A DNA stretch of 64,000 bases from Chitinophaga pinensis (GTDB lineage: Bacteria; Bacteroidota; Bacteroidia; NS11-12g; UBA955), in NCBI GenBank assembly GCA_945871905.1, contig CAMBXL010000011.1, forward strand, positions 1-64,000, given 5' to 3'. The notes under the pieces are model-generated. The model was given only the letters and a program-made list of their open reading frames with translations. It did not search any database and was not told the DNA's origin. A program made the position numbers and the translations under genes. How positions within the stretch are numbered: the first letter of the stretch is position 1; each line of letters opens with the position of its first letter. This document shows, one piece after another, positions 43,929-63,244 of this stretch.

Positions 43929-46900
43929 ATGAAATCAATCATTACTAAACCAATCCTTTTTTTATTTATTACTTTGGCTTCTATCAACGTCTATTCTCAG
44001 CAATGGCTTGGTAGAACCACTAGTAATTACTCTGGTACTTATGGCGTTTACAACAACGCTTCTTCTATCGCCGATTCCAAATATTTATTGTATTTTAACT
44101 TTTGGGGTAGAGGTGTCAATTTTTACAATGATTACCTCGATTACAACTCCCCTATTAAACTAAATAAGTGGGCAAATGACAATTATGTGCTTGCCAATAA
44201 CGACCCTAATAATAAATCAATCTATCAAAACGATTGGTTATTGGAAAATTTAAATGGCAAAGACAAGCAATTTAGTTTTAACCAAGATATTTGGGGACCT
44301 GCGATGATGTTTCCACTTTCCAAAAAAACAAACTTTTCAATAAATACCCGTCAACGCAGTGGTTTGCAAATGTTTGGGATTAGTGAAAACTTTGCTAGAA
44401 TGGCCAAAAATGGCATTGACACTAACAGTGGAATCTTCAATGGACCTAATGCTTTGAGACGAAATGTGACTTATGAAAATGGCAAGTTTGCTGTTAATGC
44501 TCAGTCCTATCAAGAATTGAGCTTTACCCTAGGAGGTATTATGCACCAATCCAAAAAACACCAATTTAATGGTGGACTAACTTTAAAACTAATTCGTGGA
44601 TTAGGATCAGCCTTTATCAAAGGTGATAATTTAAACATGAGTATTGATGGCAATCAATCTGCCGACATAAACGGAACAGTTCAATATGGTTACACTGACA
44701 ATCAATCGGTTATTGACCCATTTAATGACCCTTATGGATTATTTTCTTTAAATTCTAAAGGATTTGGAGCCGGTATAGATGTTGGCTTTGATTATACATA
44801 CCGCTCAAATAGATTGAAATACAGAAACAATCAGTGCAACAACAACAACAGAAAAAGCGATTACGATTTAAAAATTGCAATGGCATTTAATGACATTGGC
44901 GGTATTCGTTTTAACCGTGGTTCTTATGTATACAAATACCAAAACCCTGTAAATTCAAACGTCAATGTAGCGACAGGTATATTAGATGGCTTTAGGTCTA
45001 CCAATCAAAACACTTTTGATTCCATTGGAAATGCCATTTTTGGCTCAATGGGGGTAAACAAAAACAGTGGATTTACAACTGCACTTCCAGCTGCATTTAA
45101 CTTTCAAGCTGATTTCAGATTTACAAAACACTTTTACACTCAAGTCTTCTTAAATCAAAACTTAAAACCGATGAACTCTTCTGGATTAAGAGCGACTTCT
45201 ATGTTATCGGTTATACCAAGAATTGAATCAAGAGGATTTGAATTCAGTATGCCACTTACTTTGAGTGACAATTATAAAAACTTTTACGTTGGCGCATACG
45301 CCCGTATAGGACCTGTATTTTTTGGAAGTGACAACTTAGGGGGTTTATTAAATGTTGCGTCTAATAGTAATTTTAGAGGAGGAGATATTTATGGAGGTAT
45401 TTCATTTGGGATTGGCCATTGCCATACTGAATGGATAGACAATCAAGTTGACCCTGTTTATATTGATTCTGTTAGAGACACCTCACACACCGAAAAATTA
45501 ATAAACAAATCTGATACTATTGTTAAAATCAAAACTGACACCGTAAAAATAGTAATAAAAGACACCATTAAAATTACTAAAAAAGACACTGTTTATATTA
45601 ACAACACTAACAATGCAGAATTAGACAGAATATACAAAAATCGCGAAAATGAAGTATTAAGACGTCAAAGAGAACTTGAGAGACGAGAGAGAGAACTTTT
45701 AGAAAGAGAGCGAAATTTGAATCAAACTAATGCTCAGGTTTTACAAAACTGCAGAAATCAAAACAACACACTAACTGAAGAGCTTAACAGATTAAGAAAC
45801 AACGCTGTTTCAAAGGACAGAGAAATTGACCAATTGAGAAGAGACCTAGAAACTGCGAGACAAACCAATAGAAAATACGAAAGTGATTTGTTAGTTTGCA
45901 AAAACTGTCCAGATGAATTGGTTAAGAAAAATGCAGAAATAGTTAAACTTCAAGCTGAGATAGATGCTTTAAGAAAAAACACGACTCAAACCAACGCTGA
46001 AGTGATTAAGAAAGCGGAATTAGACAAAGCCAAAGCAGAGGCAGAAGCTATTGTGTTAAGAAAAAGAGTCGACAGTTTGGGTCTTGTTATTTTGAATAAA
46101 CAAAAAGAACTTGATTTATGCAAAATAGACAAAAGCTCGGGTGATATTAAAAAATGTGAAGAAGAAAAAGCCTTATTAAATCTTGAAATGATTGAGATGG
46201 CAAAAAACATCAACCGATTAAACACCAGAGTTTATAGCTTGACATACAGAGTAGACAGTTTATACAACGAACTAAACAAATCTAACAAAGCGCTTGACGA
46301 TTGCAAAAGAGCAGCCATAGCCAATGCCGAAGTAATTAAAAAAACAGAAGCGGATAAGGCTAAAGCAGAGGCTGAGGCTGAAATAGCTAAGAAAAGAGCT
46401 GAAGAATTAAACCAAGTATTAATTGCTAGAACAGCTGAATTAGAAAAATGCAAATCGAGCAATAACAATCAAACCAATGCCGAAGTAATCAAAAAAGCAG
46501 AAGCAGACAAAGCCAAAGCAGAAGCAGATGCTGAGATAGCTAAGAAAAGAGCTGAAGAATTGAACCTGTTATTAATCGCAAAAGCTGCTGAGTTAGAAAA
46601 ATGCAAACAAAACTCAACAAGCAATGATGCTGACATTTTAAAAATAAAGAAATGTGAAGAAGAGAATGAAATGTTAAAAGCAGAGATGAAAGCATTAGCA
46701 ACAAATGTTGGACGTTTAAATACCAGAAACTCAGTTTTAACATACAGAGTTGACAGTTTGATTAACGTACTTAAAAACAGTAGTTCTAACAATAACAGTT
46801 CAACAGAAGCAGAACTATTAAAAAAATGTAGAGAGGCTGAAGTTCAATACAAAGCTGAAATTACTGGTTTAAAAAACACCATTACTGCTAAAAACAAAAC

Positions 46901-47777
46901 CATAGACAGCACAAAAGCTGCGGCAGAAGTGATTGTAAAAAAACAAGCCGAATTAAGCACACAGGTTAACCAATTGAAAGCTGAAATTGAAACTTTAAAA
47001 GCTAACAGTCCAAGTGATGATTGTGCTGATTTGAAAAAACAATTAGAAGAGAAAAACGCTCAAATTCTTCAATTGAACAAAGACAAATCTGATTTACAAT
47101 TTCAAGTCAACAATTTGACAAACCAATTGAATGAAACAAGAGTTGAATATAACTTCGTGTTAAAACAAAGTCAAAAATGCAATCAAAAACTTGACAGTTG
47201 TATGAGAGGATTATACAACAAAGACATTGTTCCTGACGAAAAAGACAAACCTACAGAAGGAACAGGTCCATACCAAGGCAACAGAATTGAAAATACGACT
47301 CCGCCAAAAAGAGAAGAAGACAGACCTAGAAAAACTTTATTAGGTGCTATTTTAGAAGCCGCTTTAGAGTCAAGTTCAACGTCAGGTTCAAGTGACGAGA
47401 ATTCAGGAACAGGAACAAACACTCCTAGCAGACCAAGACCAAGTAGTCCAAACACTACAAGTTCAAATGAAAGTACTAGTAAACCAAAATATGATACTCC
47501 TGCACCTTATACTCCATCAAGACCTACCAATCCAAGTCCGAGTTATACGCCATCTAGAACCAACACGAGCAATAATTCTGGTGTAAAAGTAACGCAACCA
47601 AGCACACCTGCAACATCTAATCCTTCTCCAAGCAAGCCAAGTTCACCTGACCCAACTATTAACAGACAACCTGGAACAACGACAGGTGCAGGAACACCAA
47701 GTCCAAATTCGCCAACCATTAATTCAAGAGGTACATCAGGGGGGGCGAGTGGTTTGGAACCGGCAAGAACAAAGTAA
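43929..47777 (+). CDS. DUF5723-type outer-membrane protein with long repeat-derived coiled coil and Pro/Ser/Thr-rich tail
   Basis: N-terminal signal (YSQQWLGRTTSNYSGTYGVYNNASSIADS); barrel-like region; K/E/A-rich coiled coil with internal repeats; low-complexity C-terminus. Confidence 0.85.
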   Translation: MKSIITKPILFLFITLASINVYSQQWLGRTTSNYSGTYGVYNNASSIADSKYLLYFNFWGRGVNFYNDYLDYNSPIKLNKWANDNYVLANNDPNNKSIYQNDWLLENLNGKDKQFSFNQDIWGPAMMFPLSKKTNFSINTRQRSGLQMFGISENFARMAKNGIDTNSGIFNGPNALRRNVTYENGKFAVNAQSYQELSFTLGGIMHQSKKHQFNGGLTLKLIRGLGSAFIKGDNLNMSIDGNQSADINGTVQYGYTDNQSVIDPFNDPYGLFSLNSKGFGAGIDVGFDYTYRSNRLKYRNNQCNNNNRKSDYDLKIAMAFNDIGGIRFNRGSYVYKYQNPVNSNVNVATGILDGFRSTNQNTFDSIGNAIFGSMGVNKNSGFTTALPAAFNFQADFRFTKHFYTQVFLNQNLKPMNSSGLRATSMLSVIPRIESRGFEFSMPLTLSDNYKNFYVGAYARIGPVFFGSDNLGGLLNVASNSNFRGGDIYGGISFGIGHCHTEWIDNQVDPVYIDSVRDTSHTEKLINKSDTIVKIKTDTVKIVIKDTIKITKKDTVYINNTNNAELDRIYKNRENEVLRRQRELERRERELLERERNLNQTNAQVLQNCRNQNNTLTEELNRLRNNAVSKDREIDQLRRDLETARQTNRKYESDLLVCKNCPDELVKKNAEIVKLQAEIDALRKNTTQTNAEVIKKAELDKAKAEAEAIVLRKRVDSLGLVILNKQKELDLCKIDKSSGDIKKCEEEKALLNLEMIEMAKNINRLNTRVYSLTYRVDSLYNELNKSNKALDDCKRAAIANAEVIKKTEADKAKAEAEAEIAKKRAEELNQVLIARTAELEKCKSSNNNQTNAEVIKKAEADKAKAEADAEIAKKRAEELNLLLIAKAAELEKCKQNSTSNDADILKIKKCEEENEMLKAEMKALATNVGRLNTRNSVLTYRVDSLINVLKNSSSNNNSSTEAELLKKCREAEVQYKAEITGLKNTITAKNKTIDSTKAAAEVIVKKQAELSTQVNQLKAEIETLKANSPSDDCADLKKQLEEKNAQILQLNKDKSDLQFQVNNLTNQLNETRVEYNFVLKQSQKCNQKLDSCMRGLYNKDIVPDEKDKPTEGTGPYQGNRIENTTPPKREEDRPRKTLLGAILEAALESSSTSGSSDENSGTGTNTPSRPRPSSPNTTSSNESTSKPKYDTPAPYTPSRPTNPSPSYTPSRTNTSNNSGVKVTQPSTPATSNPSPSKPSSPDPTINRQPGTTTGAGTPSPNSPTINSRGTSGGASGLEPARTK
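45989..46761 (+). repeat. Internal coding repeats (A-B-A-A-B order)
   Basis: A unit: AEVIKKAEADKAKAEAEAEIAKKRAEELN..ELEKCK (three copies); B unit: KKCEEEKALLNLEM..NRLNTR..LTYRVDSL (two copies). Confidence 0.8.
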
Positions 47778-49888: not shown

Positions 49889-52885
49889 CTATTTCTTTTT
49901 GGTTTTGTCTTTGTAATAAAGCACATTGCCTTTAACAGTTGCATTAATTTTCTTCATTTGAGTATTCAATGCACCAATAGTAGGTTCAGTTACTTTACTG
50001 CTAATTACGATTTTTGCAGCAGGGATAATAAGATCACCAATTTGAATGCTTGCCACAAAAGTATTGCTTGGCAATTTTGTTCCATCTGCTAATTTGATAG
50101 ATTCTCCGTCTTCAAAATCTTTTTTAGAAACCACTTTAGCATCAAGTAATTGTTTAAACATGTCTTCAGAAATTTCTATTTTTCTTCCTGTTGGATTAAA
50201 CAACCAATTTACATTTTCTTTATCGTTAACCATAGTTGGCACAAACAATGCACCTCCTTGAGAAATTAAACTAACTTGACTGTAGTCTGCCATAGAAGCG
50301 GTATCGGCATTTGCAGGAGTTGAAGTTGGCGCTGTACCTGTTCCACCTGCAGTACCAGTTCCTGTATTTCCTGTTCCTGGAATGGTGCTTTTGATTGGAC
50401 CATCTTTTAAGGCTTCCGTATTAACATTTTTGAAAGTAATTTCACCTTCTTCAGTATTTACAGTACCATTATTGGCTTTCAATGCATCATATCCAAAACT
50501 GTATGGATTGTTAATCGCTGCTATTTTCATAGTTACGTTTGTCATTGTATAACTTACATCTTTTGGACCAACTCTTAACGTATTTAATTTAACAGAAGCC
50601 GTTGGTTTAACACGTCCACCTGCTATATCAGCCATGGTTACACCAGTTAAATCAGTTTGTTTCACCACACCTTTAGCAATTAGATTTTTTAATTCTAAAA
50701 CACTGATTGTTAAATCAGCTCCTGGGACAACGATTGCTGTTCCTGTAGCTGCAATGTCATTTCCGGCAGCAGCTACAATGTATGCATCATTTTTCTTACC
50801 AAGTTTTACTATAATAGGTTTAACGTTGACATTGTTAGCATCTTTGCTATTTACAGCAGCCACACGTGGGTCAAAATTCACATCTAAGGTACGAATGGTG
50901 GTACGTCTATTTTCTTGGTGTTTATTTTCTGGGCAATCTACTTTTACTGCGCCTTCACATTTACAATCGTTTACCAATTGAGATTCTCCATAACCTTGCG
51001 CCACTAATCTGCGGGCATCAATTCCTTTTCTTACAAGGTATGCCACAGCACTGTCTGCTCTTCGTTGAGACAATCCCATATTGTAATCGTAAGATGAACG
51101 ACAATCCGTATGTGAACCCAACTCTAAACGAAGTTTAGGATATTTTACAAGGAGTGGTAATATTCTTTCATCTAATACTTTGGCAGCATCAGGACGAATT
51201 TCAGCACGGTCTAAGTCATAGAAAATTGGCACCACTTCTTCGATAATTTGTGAGTACAAGCAGAAATCTTGTTTAAGTGTAGAAGATATTTTTATTCCTC
51301 TTGTTGTTCTTTGAACCAATTCAGCATCGAAATAATACAATTCACGATTGGTACAAGACATTTCATAATTGGTTTTTTCTTTTAATCTCACTTTACCATA
51401 ATATCCGTTAGCATCTGTTTTTACTAAAATTTTAGTGGTGTCTTTGTCATTGGTAAATGTAATAACAGAATTTGCTAATGGTTTAGAATTATTGAATGTA
51501 GCAGGATTTGTTTTTGGCAAAACACATTCGTAAACATAACCTTCAATTTCTATAACCAGTGGCGTTACATTGAATTCATAAATATCAAAATTTCCTTTCC
51601 CTCCACAACGGTTTGAAGTAAAGAAACCGTGGTCAGGATTGTTATTATCGAAAGTCATTCCAAAATCGTCACCACCACTGTTAATAGGAGCTCTTAAATT
51701 TTCTGGTTCTGTCCATTCTGTACCCGAACCTTCACATTTAAACACATCTAAACCTCCCATACCCATGTGACCGTTTGAAGAGAAATAAACACTTTTGTCG
51801 TGTAAATTATAGTATGGGAACATTTCATCTGAAGGCGTATTTATCGTTTTTCCTAAGTTGAAAGGCTCGCCCCAATCTTTGGCACGTTGGTTATAAATAG
51901 CGCACCAAATATCGTACCCACCTTCACCACCATCTCGGTTAGAAGAGAAATACAAAGTTTTACCATCTTCACTGATAGCAGGGTGACCATAGTCAAAACT
52001 GTCATTGATACAGAAACTCAACATTTGTTCTTCACCCCATTCAGAACCGTTCATTTTGGCCATGTACAACTTACATGATGTTGATTTACCATCCGAACCA
52101 TTACACTGTGTGTAGTAAACAGTACTAAATTTTCTATCAAAAGAACTAGAACCATCGTTGTATTTGGTATTGATAGTTCCTAAAGCTAAAACCGGTTTTT
52201 CCCAAATCATACCTGCACCTCTTTTACCTTTCTTCCCTTTAACATACCACATATCGGAATAACTATTTCCTGTTAATCCGTATACTTTATTTTTAGCAAC
52301 ACCACCTACTCTATCAGTACTAAAATATAAAACATCATCTTTTTTACTTGCAACCATTGGACTGTAATCCATTCCTTTGGTATTTACAATTTTAAAATTT
52401 GAAACTTTAAAACGGCTTAATGGCGCTTCTTTCCTCCAATTTTCAGCACTGTCTATTCCTGCTACCTTTCTTAGAACTTTCTCGTCATTAGGCACTTCTT
52501 CTAAATATTTAGTAAACCATTCTCTGGCTTTTCTATTGGCATCAGGATTACATCCATCGCCAGAAACTTTCATACTTAAGGATCCTAATTGATACAGGGC
52601 TTCCGTATTTTTAGGTTCTTTCTTTAAAACTTTCTCATAAGCTTTGATTGCCTTCTCGTATTCATTTGCCATTCTGTAACAAAAAGCTGCTTCCATCCTA
52701 CCTCTTTGAGCTTCATCTTTGTCTTTGACATTTGGAGAAATTTGGGTGTATAAATCCCCTGCCAACTTATAATTCATCCTTTTTTTGGCTTCGTCTGCTT
52801 TTGACAAACTTGCCCCGCCACAACCCGACAATACAATTGAAAGTGCTACAATTGCTGAGCTGAATAATATAGTAATTTTTTTCAT
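49889..52885 (-). CDS. PorE-like OmpA-family lipoprotein: TPR + PD40 propeller + carboxypeptidase regulatory-like domain + OmpA + two extra C-terminal domains
   Basis: Lipobox VLSGCGG; TPR (AYEKVLKKEPKNTEALYQLG); PD40 (AISEDGKTLYFSSNRDGGEGGYDIW); OmpA (LRLELGSHTDCRSSYDYNMGLSQRRADSAVAYLVRKGI). Start revised to MKKITIL at 52885. Confidence 0.9.
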   Translation of the reverse strand: MKKITILFSSAIVALSIVLSGCGGASLSKADEAKKRMNYKLAGDLYTQISPNVKDKDEAQRGRMEAAFCYRMANEYEKAIKAYEKVLKKEPKNTEALYQLGSLSMKVSGDGCNPDANRKAREWFTKYLEEVPNDEKVLRKVAGIDSAENWRKEAPLSRFKVSNFKIVNTKGMDYSPMVASKKDDVLYFSTDRVGGVAKNKVYGLTGNSYSDMWYVKGKKGKRGAGMIWEKPVLALGTINTKYNDGSSSFDRKFSTVYYTQCNGSDGKSTSCKLYMAKMNGSEWGEEQMLSFCINDSFDYGHPAISEDGKTLYFSSNRDGGEGGYDIWCAIYNQRAKDWGEPFNLGKTINTPSDEMFPYYNLHDKSVYFSSNGHMGMGGLDVFKCEGSGTEWTEPENLRAPINSGGDDFGMTFDNNNPDHGFFTSNRCGGKGNFDIYEFNVTPLVIEIEGYVYECVLPKTNPATFNNSKPLANSVITFTNDKDTTKILVKTDANGYYGKVRLKEKTNYEMSCTNRELYYFDAELVQRTTRGIKISSTLKQDFCLYSQIIEEVVPIFYDLDRAEIRPDAAKVLDERILPLLVKYPKLRLELGSHTDCRSSYDYNMGLSQRRADSAVAYLVRKGIDARRLVAQGYGESQLVNDCKCEGAVKVDCPENKHQENRRTTIRTLDVNFDPRVAAVNSKDANNVNVKPIIVKLGKKNDAYIVAAAGNDIAATGTAIVVPGADLTISVLELKNLIAKGVVKQTDLTGVTMADIAGGRVKPTASVKLNTLRVGPKDVSYTMTNVTMKIAAINNPYSFGYDALKANNGTVNTEEGEITFKNVNTEALKDGPIKSTIPGTGNTGTGTAGGTGTAPTSTPANADTASMADYSQVSLISQGGALFVPTMVNDKENVNWLFNPTGRKIEISEDMFKQLLDAKVVSKKDFEDGESIKLADGTKLPSNTFVASIQIGDLIIPAAKIVISSKVTEPTIGALNTQMKKINATVKGNVLYYKDKTKKK

Positions 52886-53022
52886 GCGTTGATTAATGGT
52901 ACTAACTGGTTTATCTACAATCCACAAACCTATATAAAAATTTATACTTTACAAAATTATTTTCAAGTTAAACGTCTGATAACTAAAAAATATTGTATTT
53001 CAAGGGCAAAAGAATATGCAAT

Positions 53023-61813: not shown

Positions 61814-63244
61814 TTACTTAACGTATTGAAATTTTATTGATTGCTGGTAATTATCGGCACTAAACACTATTATATAAAATCCTGATTTGAAATCGCTTAT
61901 ATCCATAATAGTTTGATTGACAACCGTTTTTAAGATTTTCCCTGATATTTCTTTAAGTTGAACAGTCCAATGACTTACATTGGCATCAACTTGAATATTA
62001 ACTGTACCTGAACTAGGATTGGGGAAGATAGAAACGAGGGTTTGTTTATTTACCGTTTGAATATCACTTGGCAAGCAGCTTGCTGAGGAAGTATCAATTT
62101 GTTTGCTAAAAAAGTTTGCCATGTTTTTAGAACGTAATTTTACTTGATCTATTGCATGTCCTGTAAGTGCAGGATTGGAAACTTGCATTGCACAATTGAC
62201 TGTATTTAAAGTTGAGTCAAACAAATAGTCTGGCAATTGAGGTACAGTAGTCTTCAATTTTTTAATCAAATTAAACAGTCCACTTGAACCATAGACATAA
62301 GGACGATTGACAATTGATTGGCAATTGGCAGGAAAACCTTGGGCACAAATATTATAGTCGTGAAAAATCCTTTGTTGCTTGTAGGGAACAATTAAATCAT
62401 TGGGTTGATGATAGGCATAAATAGCAGGTGATTTGGCATAAGAATAGCGGCTAAAATTATCAAACATAAGAGCGCCATAAATACTTCCCACTCCTTTGAT
62501 TGTATAATTTAAATTGGTTGGATTCAAATCTCCATGGATTGAACCTAAGTCGGGTCTAGTTAGATTTAATGCCGACAATGAAGTGGTATGACCTGTACTT
62601 ACCAAACAAGTCGACTCATAGATTGCATTGGGTCTTGCTACTGTATTTATAGCATAGCAGCTTGGGTGTTTTTCTAATGTATCGTCAATAAAAGCCGTAG
62701 CTAAAGCAATGAAACCGCCTGCACTTTCTCCAACTACAAAGATGTTTTTAGGGTCAATCTTCAAGGAATCTTTTTGATTAAGCAAAAAACGAATAGCACC
62801 CTTTGCATCTTGCATTCCTCTGTAAACAGCTCTGTACCACTCTGCAGTATCTGTCATATTCAAACAATTCCAATTTGGGATATTACAATTAATAGCTGAA
62901 GCTGTTTGAAACATTCCCAAACGGTAATTAATAGAAGCCGTTACATAACCTCGTTGCGCGAATTCTTTAATTATCAGTGGCGGTGCCCCAGTAGATTTGT
63001 TTCCTCCCATAAAAGCACCTCCATGAATAGCAATAAGCAAAGGTCGTCCACAAACGGGTGGAGTGTCATTAGTCGGAATGGATACATCCATCCTTAACAA
63101 TCGGTTTTGTCCACCAAAATCGATGGCAGACCCATAAACAACATTAGAAATCTGAATTGTTTGATAGGCAGTATCTACCCACTTTTGAGCTTTTAATTGC
63201 AACCCAACAATAAGCAATAAGGCACAAACAATTTTTGATTTCAT
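61814..63244 (-). CDS. Secreted alpha/beta hydrolase (carboxylesterase-like) with T9SS C-terminal sorting domain
   Basis: IAIHGGAFMGGNKS, VVGESAGGFIALATAF; C-terminal VSIFPNPSSGTVNIQVD...DISDFKSGFYIIVF. Confidence 0.9.
   Translation of the reverse strand: MKSKIVCALLLIVGLQLKAQKWVDTAYQTIQISNVVYGSAIDFGGQNRLLRMDVSIPTNDTPPVCGRPLLIAIHGGAFMGGNKSTGAPPLIIKEFAQRGYVTASINYRLGMFQTASAINCNIPNWNCLNMTDTAEWYRAVYRGMQDAKGAIRFLLNQKDSLKIDPKNIFVVGESAGGFIALATAFIDDTLEKHPSCYAINTVARPNAIYESTCLVSTGHTTSLSALNLTRPDLGSIHGDLNPTNLNYTIKGVGSIYGALMFDNFSRYSYAKSPAIYAYHQPNDLIVPYKQQRIFHDYNICAQGFPANCQSIVNRPYVYGSSGLFNLIKKLKTTVPQLPDYLFDSTLNTVNCAMQVSNPALTGHAIDQVKLRSKNMANFFSKQIDTSSASCLPSDIQTVNKQTLVSIFPNPSSGTVNIQVDANVSHWTVQLKEISGKILKTVVNQTIMDISDFKSGFYIIVFSADNYQQSIKFQYVK

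Follow-up and report, generated by a model that had tools for sequence, protein, structure and literature searches.

Retropepsin-like domains without the catalytic motif are fused to a PorE-like OmpA-family lipoprotein in an order of uncultured Bacteroidia

Introduction

PorE (PG1058/PGN_1296) of Porphyromonas gingivalis and its OmpA domain structure are already known (PMC7192894, PMC5053529): a lipoprotein signal is followed by TPR, beta-propeller, carboxypeptidase-regulatory-like (CRD) and OmpA_C domains, and the protein stops after OmpA (domains up to residue 668; PMC7192894). Heath et al. mentioned C-terminal extensions in some PG1058 homologues as data not shown, and the extensions were not identified (PMC5053529). 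The CHU_0125 family, known from Cytophaga hutchinsonii for its part in outer-membrane integrity, has a similar scaffold of TPR, PD40 and OmpA, and the CHU_0125 protein has 656 aa and no extension (PMC5891637). Retropepsin-like enzymes are also known in bacteria, namely APRc of Rickettsia and RloA of Pseudomonas (PMC12239564).

Here we describe a gene in the window (the whole stretch of 64,000 nucleotides that was analysed) whose product has the lipoprotein signal and domain order of PorE and the scaffold of CHU_0125 but, unlike either, continues after OmpA with two retropepsin-like domains. These two blocks have the fold, the ADG/ANG flap region and the hydrophobic-hydrophobic-Gly motif in common with the bacterial retropepsins (the TIGR02281 clan AA DTGA family, APRc and RloA), but they differ from them in lacking DTG(A/S), in being fused behind OmpA and in standing in tandem in the subclade of the window. 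A preliminary description of this DNA considered the arrangement unfamiliar on PorE-type T9SS proteins, and in our searches of the open-licence literature we found no retropepsin-like domain reported on an OmpA or PorE protein.

Results

Gene and domain architecture

The gene lies on the minus strand (-), as do all the features below, in an ORF spanning 49889-52927. Translation likely starts at ATG 52885 rather than at TTG 52927, which gives a PorE-like OmpA-family lipoprotein of 998 aa (49889..52885, stop codon at 49889-49891). The lipoprotein signal peptide, MKKITILFSSAIVALSIVLSGC, was predicted at 52820..52885 from the lipobox pattern (LSGC). It is followed by a TPR region (52439..52807, approximate limits; Pfam TPR_11, TPR_2 and others) and by a beta-propeller region (PD40) at 51524..52390, with a Pfam PF07676 match at residues 295-328 (1.9e-8) and approximate limits set by analogy with the PorE domains (PMC7192894). 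A putative CRD was placed at 51269..51523 (approximate limits) from its position and from the full-length match to the PorE model; the Pfam scan of the protein gave no match for this region itself. The OmpA_C-like peptidoglycan-binding domain (50903..51232; Pfam PF00691, 5.9e-14) carries the motif HTDC...LSQRRADSAV...NRR.

The protein extends about 310 aa beyond the OmpA domain, in two blocks (50426-50821 and 49892-50251) joined by a Gly/Thr/Pro linker, exactly as first described. Block 1, a retropepsin-like domain without catalytic Asp, occupies 50426..50821 according to hhalign, profile search, AF2 and Foldseek. The end of block 1 and a Gly/Thr/Pro/Ala linker lie at 50252..50425, where both the sequence and AF2 point to flexibility (pLDDT <50, model residues 169-202). 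Block 2, a retropepsin-like domain without DTG that is found across the order, was identified at 49892..50296 by the same four approaches.

The gene neighbours, named from their translations, are nusA and rimP downstream and murQ and an NlpC/P60-type gene upstream, and they give no functional hint for the PorE-like protein. Elsewhere in the window, a 1282-aa ORF (43929-47777) begins with what resembles a signal peptide, continues with a long stretch that is coiled-coil-like and rich in KAEAEA repeats, and has a Ser/Pro/Thr-rich end.

Relation to PorE, CHU_0125 and the T9SS

The best NCBIfam match of the 998-aa protein was PorE (NF052230 T9SS_PorE, 4.6e-125, 418 bits vs cut-off 600), with a nearly equal score for CHU_0125 (NF053607, 2.4e-118, 396 bits vs cut-off 620), and neither threshold was reached. 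PorE-like, the term used at the outset, is thus a fair label, but full membership in the PorE family did not hold. The PorE succession of TPR, propeller, CRD and OmpA behind a lipoprotein signal was present, the CRD by position only. A CHU_0125-like role in outer-membrane integrity fits the protein as well.

The genome of the window has a T9SS, as does the host of PorE: we detected SprA (2413 bits), GldL and 81 cargo C-terminal domains above the cut-off. One of these 81 cargo candidates of the 2.5-Mb genome is a frame of the window itself (61814-63244), whose end matches the sorting domain of T9SS cargo (TIGR04183, E 1.6e-8). One other PorE-like gene of the genome is full-length; it encodes 645 aa, has no extension and is unlinked (G000:C1:220521). 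Three more PorE-like genes matched through the OmpA part only.

Retropepsin-like fold of both blocks

Neither Pfam, NCBIfam nor PDB gave a useful match when searched directly by sequence with the two blocks from the window, and profiles built from the orthologues were needed. The profile of block 2 alone found intact retropepsins of other Bacteroidia (E down to 5.9e-20), and that of block 1 alone found an intact retropepsin with DTGAS (L071, E 1.7e-9). Compared with intact retropepsins by hhalign, both blocks aligned over the full length (block 2, probability 98.9, E 1.4e-17; block 1, probability 97.7, E 1.8e-12). With 100 column-shuffled controls for each block, none scored as high as the real profile, and reversing the profiles brought the score to chance level, so a chance resemblance to retropepsins was excluded. 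Pfam Asp_protease_2 was matched weakly by 22 out of 30 block-2 orthologues (best 1.3e-4).

Outside the order, the block-2 profile matched aspartic proteases that carry DTGAS or DSGAS together with ADG/ANG and LLGQS-type motifs. An NCBIfam scan of two of these gave TIGR02281 matches, one above and one just below the cut-off. From sequence reading, an unusual fusion in another Bacteroidia family (L070, G237:C16; 551-aa ORF) combines three FKBP-type peptidyl-prolyl isomerase-like repeats with a following intact retropepsin-like domain (FDTGASD). Two TPR-like proteins (L068 and L073), read in the same way, have an intact retropepsin-like domain inserted or terminal, which suggests that in the class proteases of this type occasionally occur joined to scaffold repeats.

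The AF2 models were single chains of the tandem blocks and of block 1 alone, so that block 2 was modelled within the tandem only. Confidence in the tandem model was mostly 85-97 per ten-residue stretch in both blocks, with a pTM of 0.45 that does not fix how the blocks are placed relative to each other; block 1 alone gave a pLDDT of 84.8 and a pTM of 0.74. Foldseek matched the tandem model to APRc, Ddi1 and pepsins, and block 1 alone to Ddi1 and APRc (E 2e-5, target TM 0.5-0.68). Profiles and models together support a retropepsin-like (clan AA) fold for both blocks, which bears out the plan read from the letters in the preliminary description, and the predicted fold matches the solved retropepsins APRc and Ddi1. 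The supposed homology between the two blocks was also recovered, in a single register over 127 columns (hhalign probability 82, E 1e-5; score attained by 0 out of 100 column shuffles), and in two relatives the block-2 profile also matched block 1 of the same protein.

The plant 7S globulin, EDGP and conglutin gamma occurred among the Foldseek matches of the blocks. In these dead pepsin-fold proteins the aspartic-protease fold is used without catalysis; unlike the window protein, they belong to the two-lobed family A1 and have no OmpA scaffold.

A further reading concerns how the blocks might pair: as mainly dimerisation or clamp modules they would link neighbouring scaffold proteins, with block 2 of one PorE-like molecule pairing with that of another in the manner of retropepsins and, in the subclade of the window, blocks 1 and 2 of a single chain forming a pseudo-pepsin. 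Retropepsins are active as homodimers whose interface includes the DTG loop (PMC12239564), and two-lobed pepsins align across both blocks in Foldseek. However, superposition on whole pepsins was poor (rmsd 16-19, TM 0.2), the AF2 model with its low pTM contains no pepsin-like pair, the single-block form is more widespread and neither block retains the DTG loop from which the interface is built; we consider this reading unlikely.

Loss of the active site

The motifs quoted in the preliminary description, VVPGAD and NPTGRK, are correct and both sit at the DTG position. In block 1 the best alignment needs a one-residue deletion (VPGA-D vs DTGASD; degenerate loop VPGAD at 50714..50728), and none of 16 block-1 domains has Asp at the catalytic position, which is occupied by V, A, T, K and others. 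In block 2 of the window the loop reads N-P-T-G-R at the DTGAS position (50183..50197), with Asn where Asp is expected. The alignment of 66 distinct block-2 domains has D in 47, N in 13, T in 3, E in 2 and I in 1 at this column, so the catalytic-position aspartate is absent from 19 of them; the glycine of DTG, and likewise DTG or DSG as a motif, was found in none (0/66). The structural Gly of the hydrophobic-hydrophobic-Gly motif was kept in 63 out of the 66. The loss of the catalytic DTG from both blocks, as first proposed, therefore holds across the order, where the orthologue alignment never shows an intact DTG.

Because D and N exchange with Gly nearby, the catalytic loop of block 2 appears from the alignment to have become a plain turn and not a catalytic dyad. 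An active protease was rejected since DTG is absent. Block 2 could still be a working but unusual protease that uses the Asp kept by the majority of orthologues, within a fold that retains its structural Gly, and some residual or unusual activity is conceivable because most domains have Asp or Asn at the catalytic position. We give this reading very little credence, as no domain retains the conserved Gly of the motif, the window itself has Asn at a column where D, N, T, E and I replace one another, and true relatives of active type in the same order keep DSGAS (L223) and DTGAS (L224). No TIGR02281 match was found in the window's own genome.

Selection and the conserved flap segment

For close relatives, block 2 gave dN/dS values of 0.02-0.06 and block 1 values of 0.03-0.08, and in the more distant pair of the window and genome G001 it was about 0.19 in both blocks vs 0.055 in the core. 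The blocks evolve faster than the core (68-74% vs 87% identity in the latter pair), which, together with the low-complexity linker, might suggest that they serve as passive spacers or are remnants in decay, with no function in themselves. This is highly improbable, given dN/dS values far below 1 in both blocks, the order-wide retention and the highly conserved flap columns. By this measure both blocks are under purifying selection and are not decaying, and a decaying remnant was rejected because dN/dS is low.

Conservation in block 2 differs from that of the active enzymes. The information at T-G-A-S falls from 3.3-3.9 bits in active enzymes to about 1-2 in block 2, and the segment KKDF-DGExIKLxDGTKLPSNxF gains conservation: against a comparison set of just 12 active enzymes, drawn from a broader taxonomic range, its Phe, Lys and Phe columns reached 4.7, 4.0 and 4.3 bits vs 2.2, 2.2 and 1.9. 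This segment, DFEDGESIKLADGTKLPSNTF in the window (50057..50119), contains the most conserved columns of block 2 and was assigned to the flap by alignment to the retropepsin plan, not from coordinates. As conservation has moved to the flap segment, a binding role for the flap face is favoured, and the shift from the DTG loop to the flap suggests a pseudo-protease that would bind a partner near peptidoglycan or the T9SS.

Distribution and evolutionary origin

The block-2 profile matched 95 out of 108 genomes of the order, including 60 of the 64 good ones, nearly always on a frame of about 850-1090 aa. In our sample of the class Bacteroidia outside the order, it matched 11 out of about 285 genomes, there in other proteins, and block 2 was not found on a PorE-like protein. 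Block 1 is confined to four genera (g1, g7, g3 and g18) of family f1, and the form with block 2 alone is the commoner. According to the record titles, every fusion carrier retrieved from the named genome collection is an environmental assembly, and none is a named cultured strain.

As reconstructed from the PorE-like core, the fusion of block 2 had a single origin in the order: all fusion proteins formed one clade (SH-aLRT 99), in which the sole short-tailed member (L124) is truncated by the contig end, and the two-block proteins placed in the tree formed one subclade (SH-aLRT 99). The sister group includes Bacteroidetes bacterium UKL13-3, with a short tail of about 40 residues in most members. 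At L094, L105, L107, L117 and L125 two PorE-like genes stand in tandem, one copy with a post-OmpA tail of 40-50 residues and the other without; the tailed copies belong to the lineage that is sister to the fusion clade.

In the domain trees, block 1 fell among active enzymes and block 2 on a separate branch, which would mean two recruitments and two catalytic losses. Two separate recruitments may thus have taken place; block 1 is on a long branch, and a tree joining the blocks as one clade was not rejected (p-AU 0.136). A bolder version, in which two retropepsins were recruited successively to the T9SS PorE scaffold and, both dead, form a pseudo-pepsin clamp that holds extended T9SS-substrate segments or ring components at the peptidoglycan, seems to us decidedly doubtful.

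Discussion

We regard the finding as real, with the fold and the pseudo-protease status of the blocks well supported; the function we infer. On balance we favour an outer-membrane PorE-like lipoprotein whose fused dead retropepsin-like domains act as binding modules, mainly via the flap, and across this order of uncultured Bacteroidia the dead domains probably serve in this way. The preliminary description had put forward binding or assembly as the role of the blocks, and we likewise infer such a role.

According to the proposed mechanism, a PorE-like lipoprotein in an ancestor of the order would have gained a retropepsin-like aspartic protease domain behind OmpA, its peptidoglycan-binding domain; a few genera have block 1 as a further domain of this kind, located between OmpA and block 2. 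Held between the outer membrane and the peptidoglycan by its lipid anchor and OmpA, the protein would extend its dead protease domains on a flexible tether into the periplasm, where the blocks would bind a protein or peptide mainly through the conserved flap segment, with no catalytic cleft. The candidate partner would most likely be a second component of the envelope or the T9SS, or else a secreted substrate bound through an extended segment.

Few descriptions exist of bacterial pseudo-aspartic-proteases of the retropepsin type. The fusion points to a partner of PorE-like proteins still to be found and, as an order-wide addition to an envelope scaffold in which the active site was erased and the flap conserved, it offers a clean case of evolution from protease to binder.
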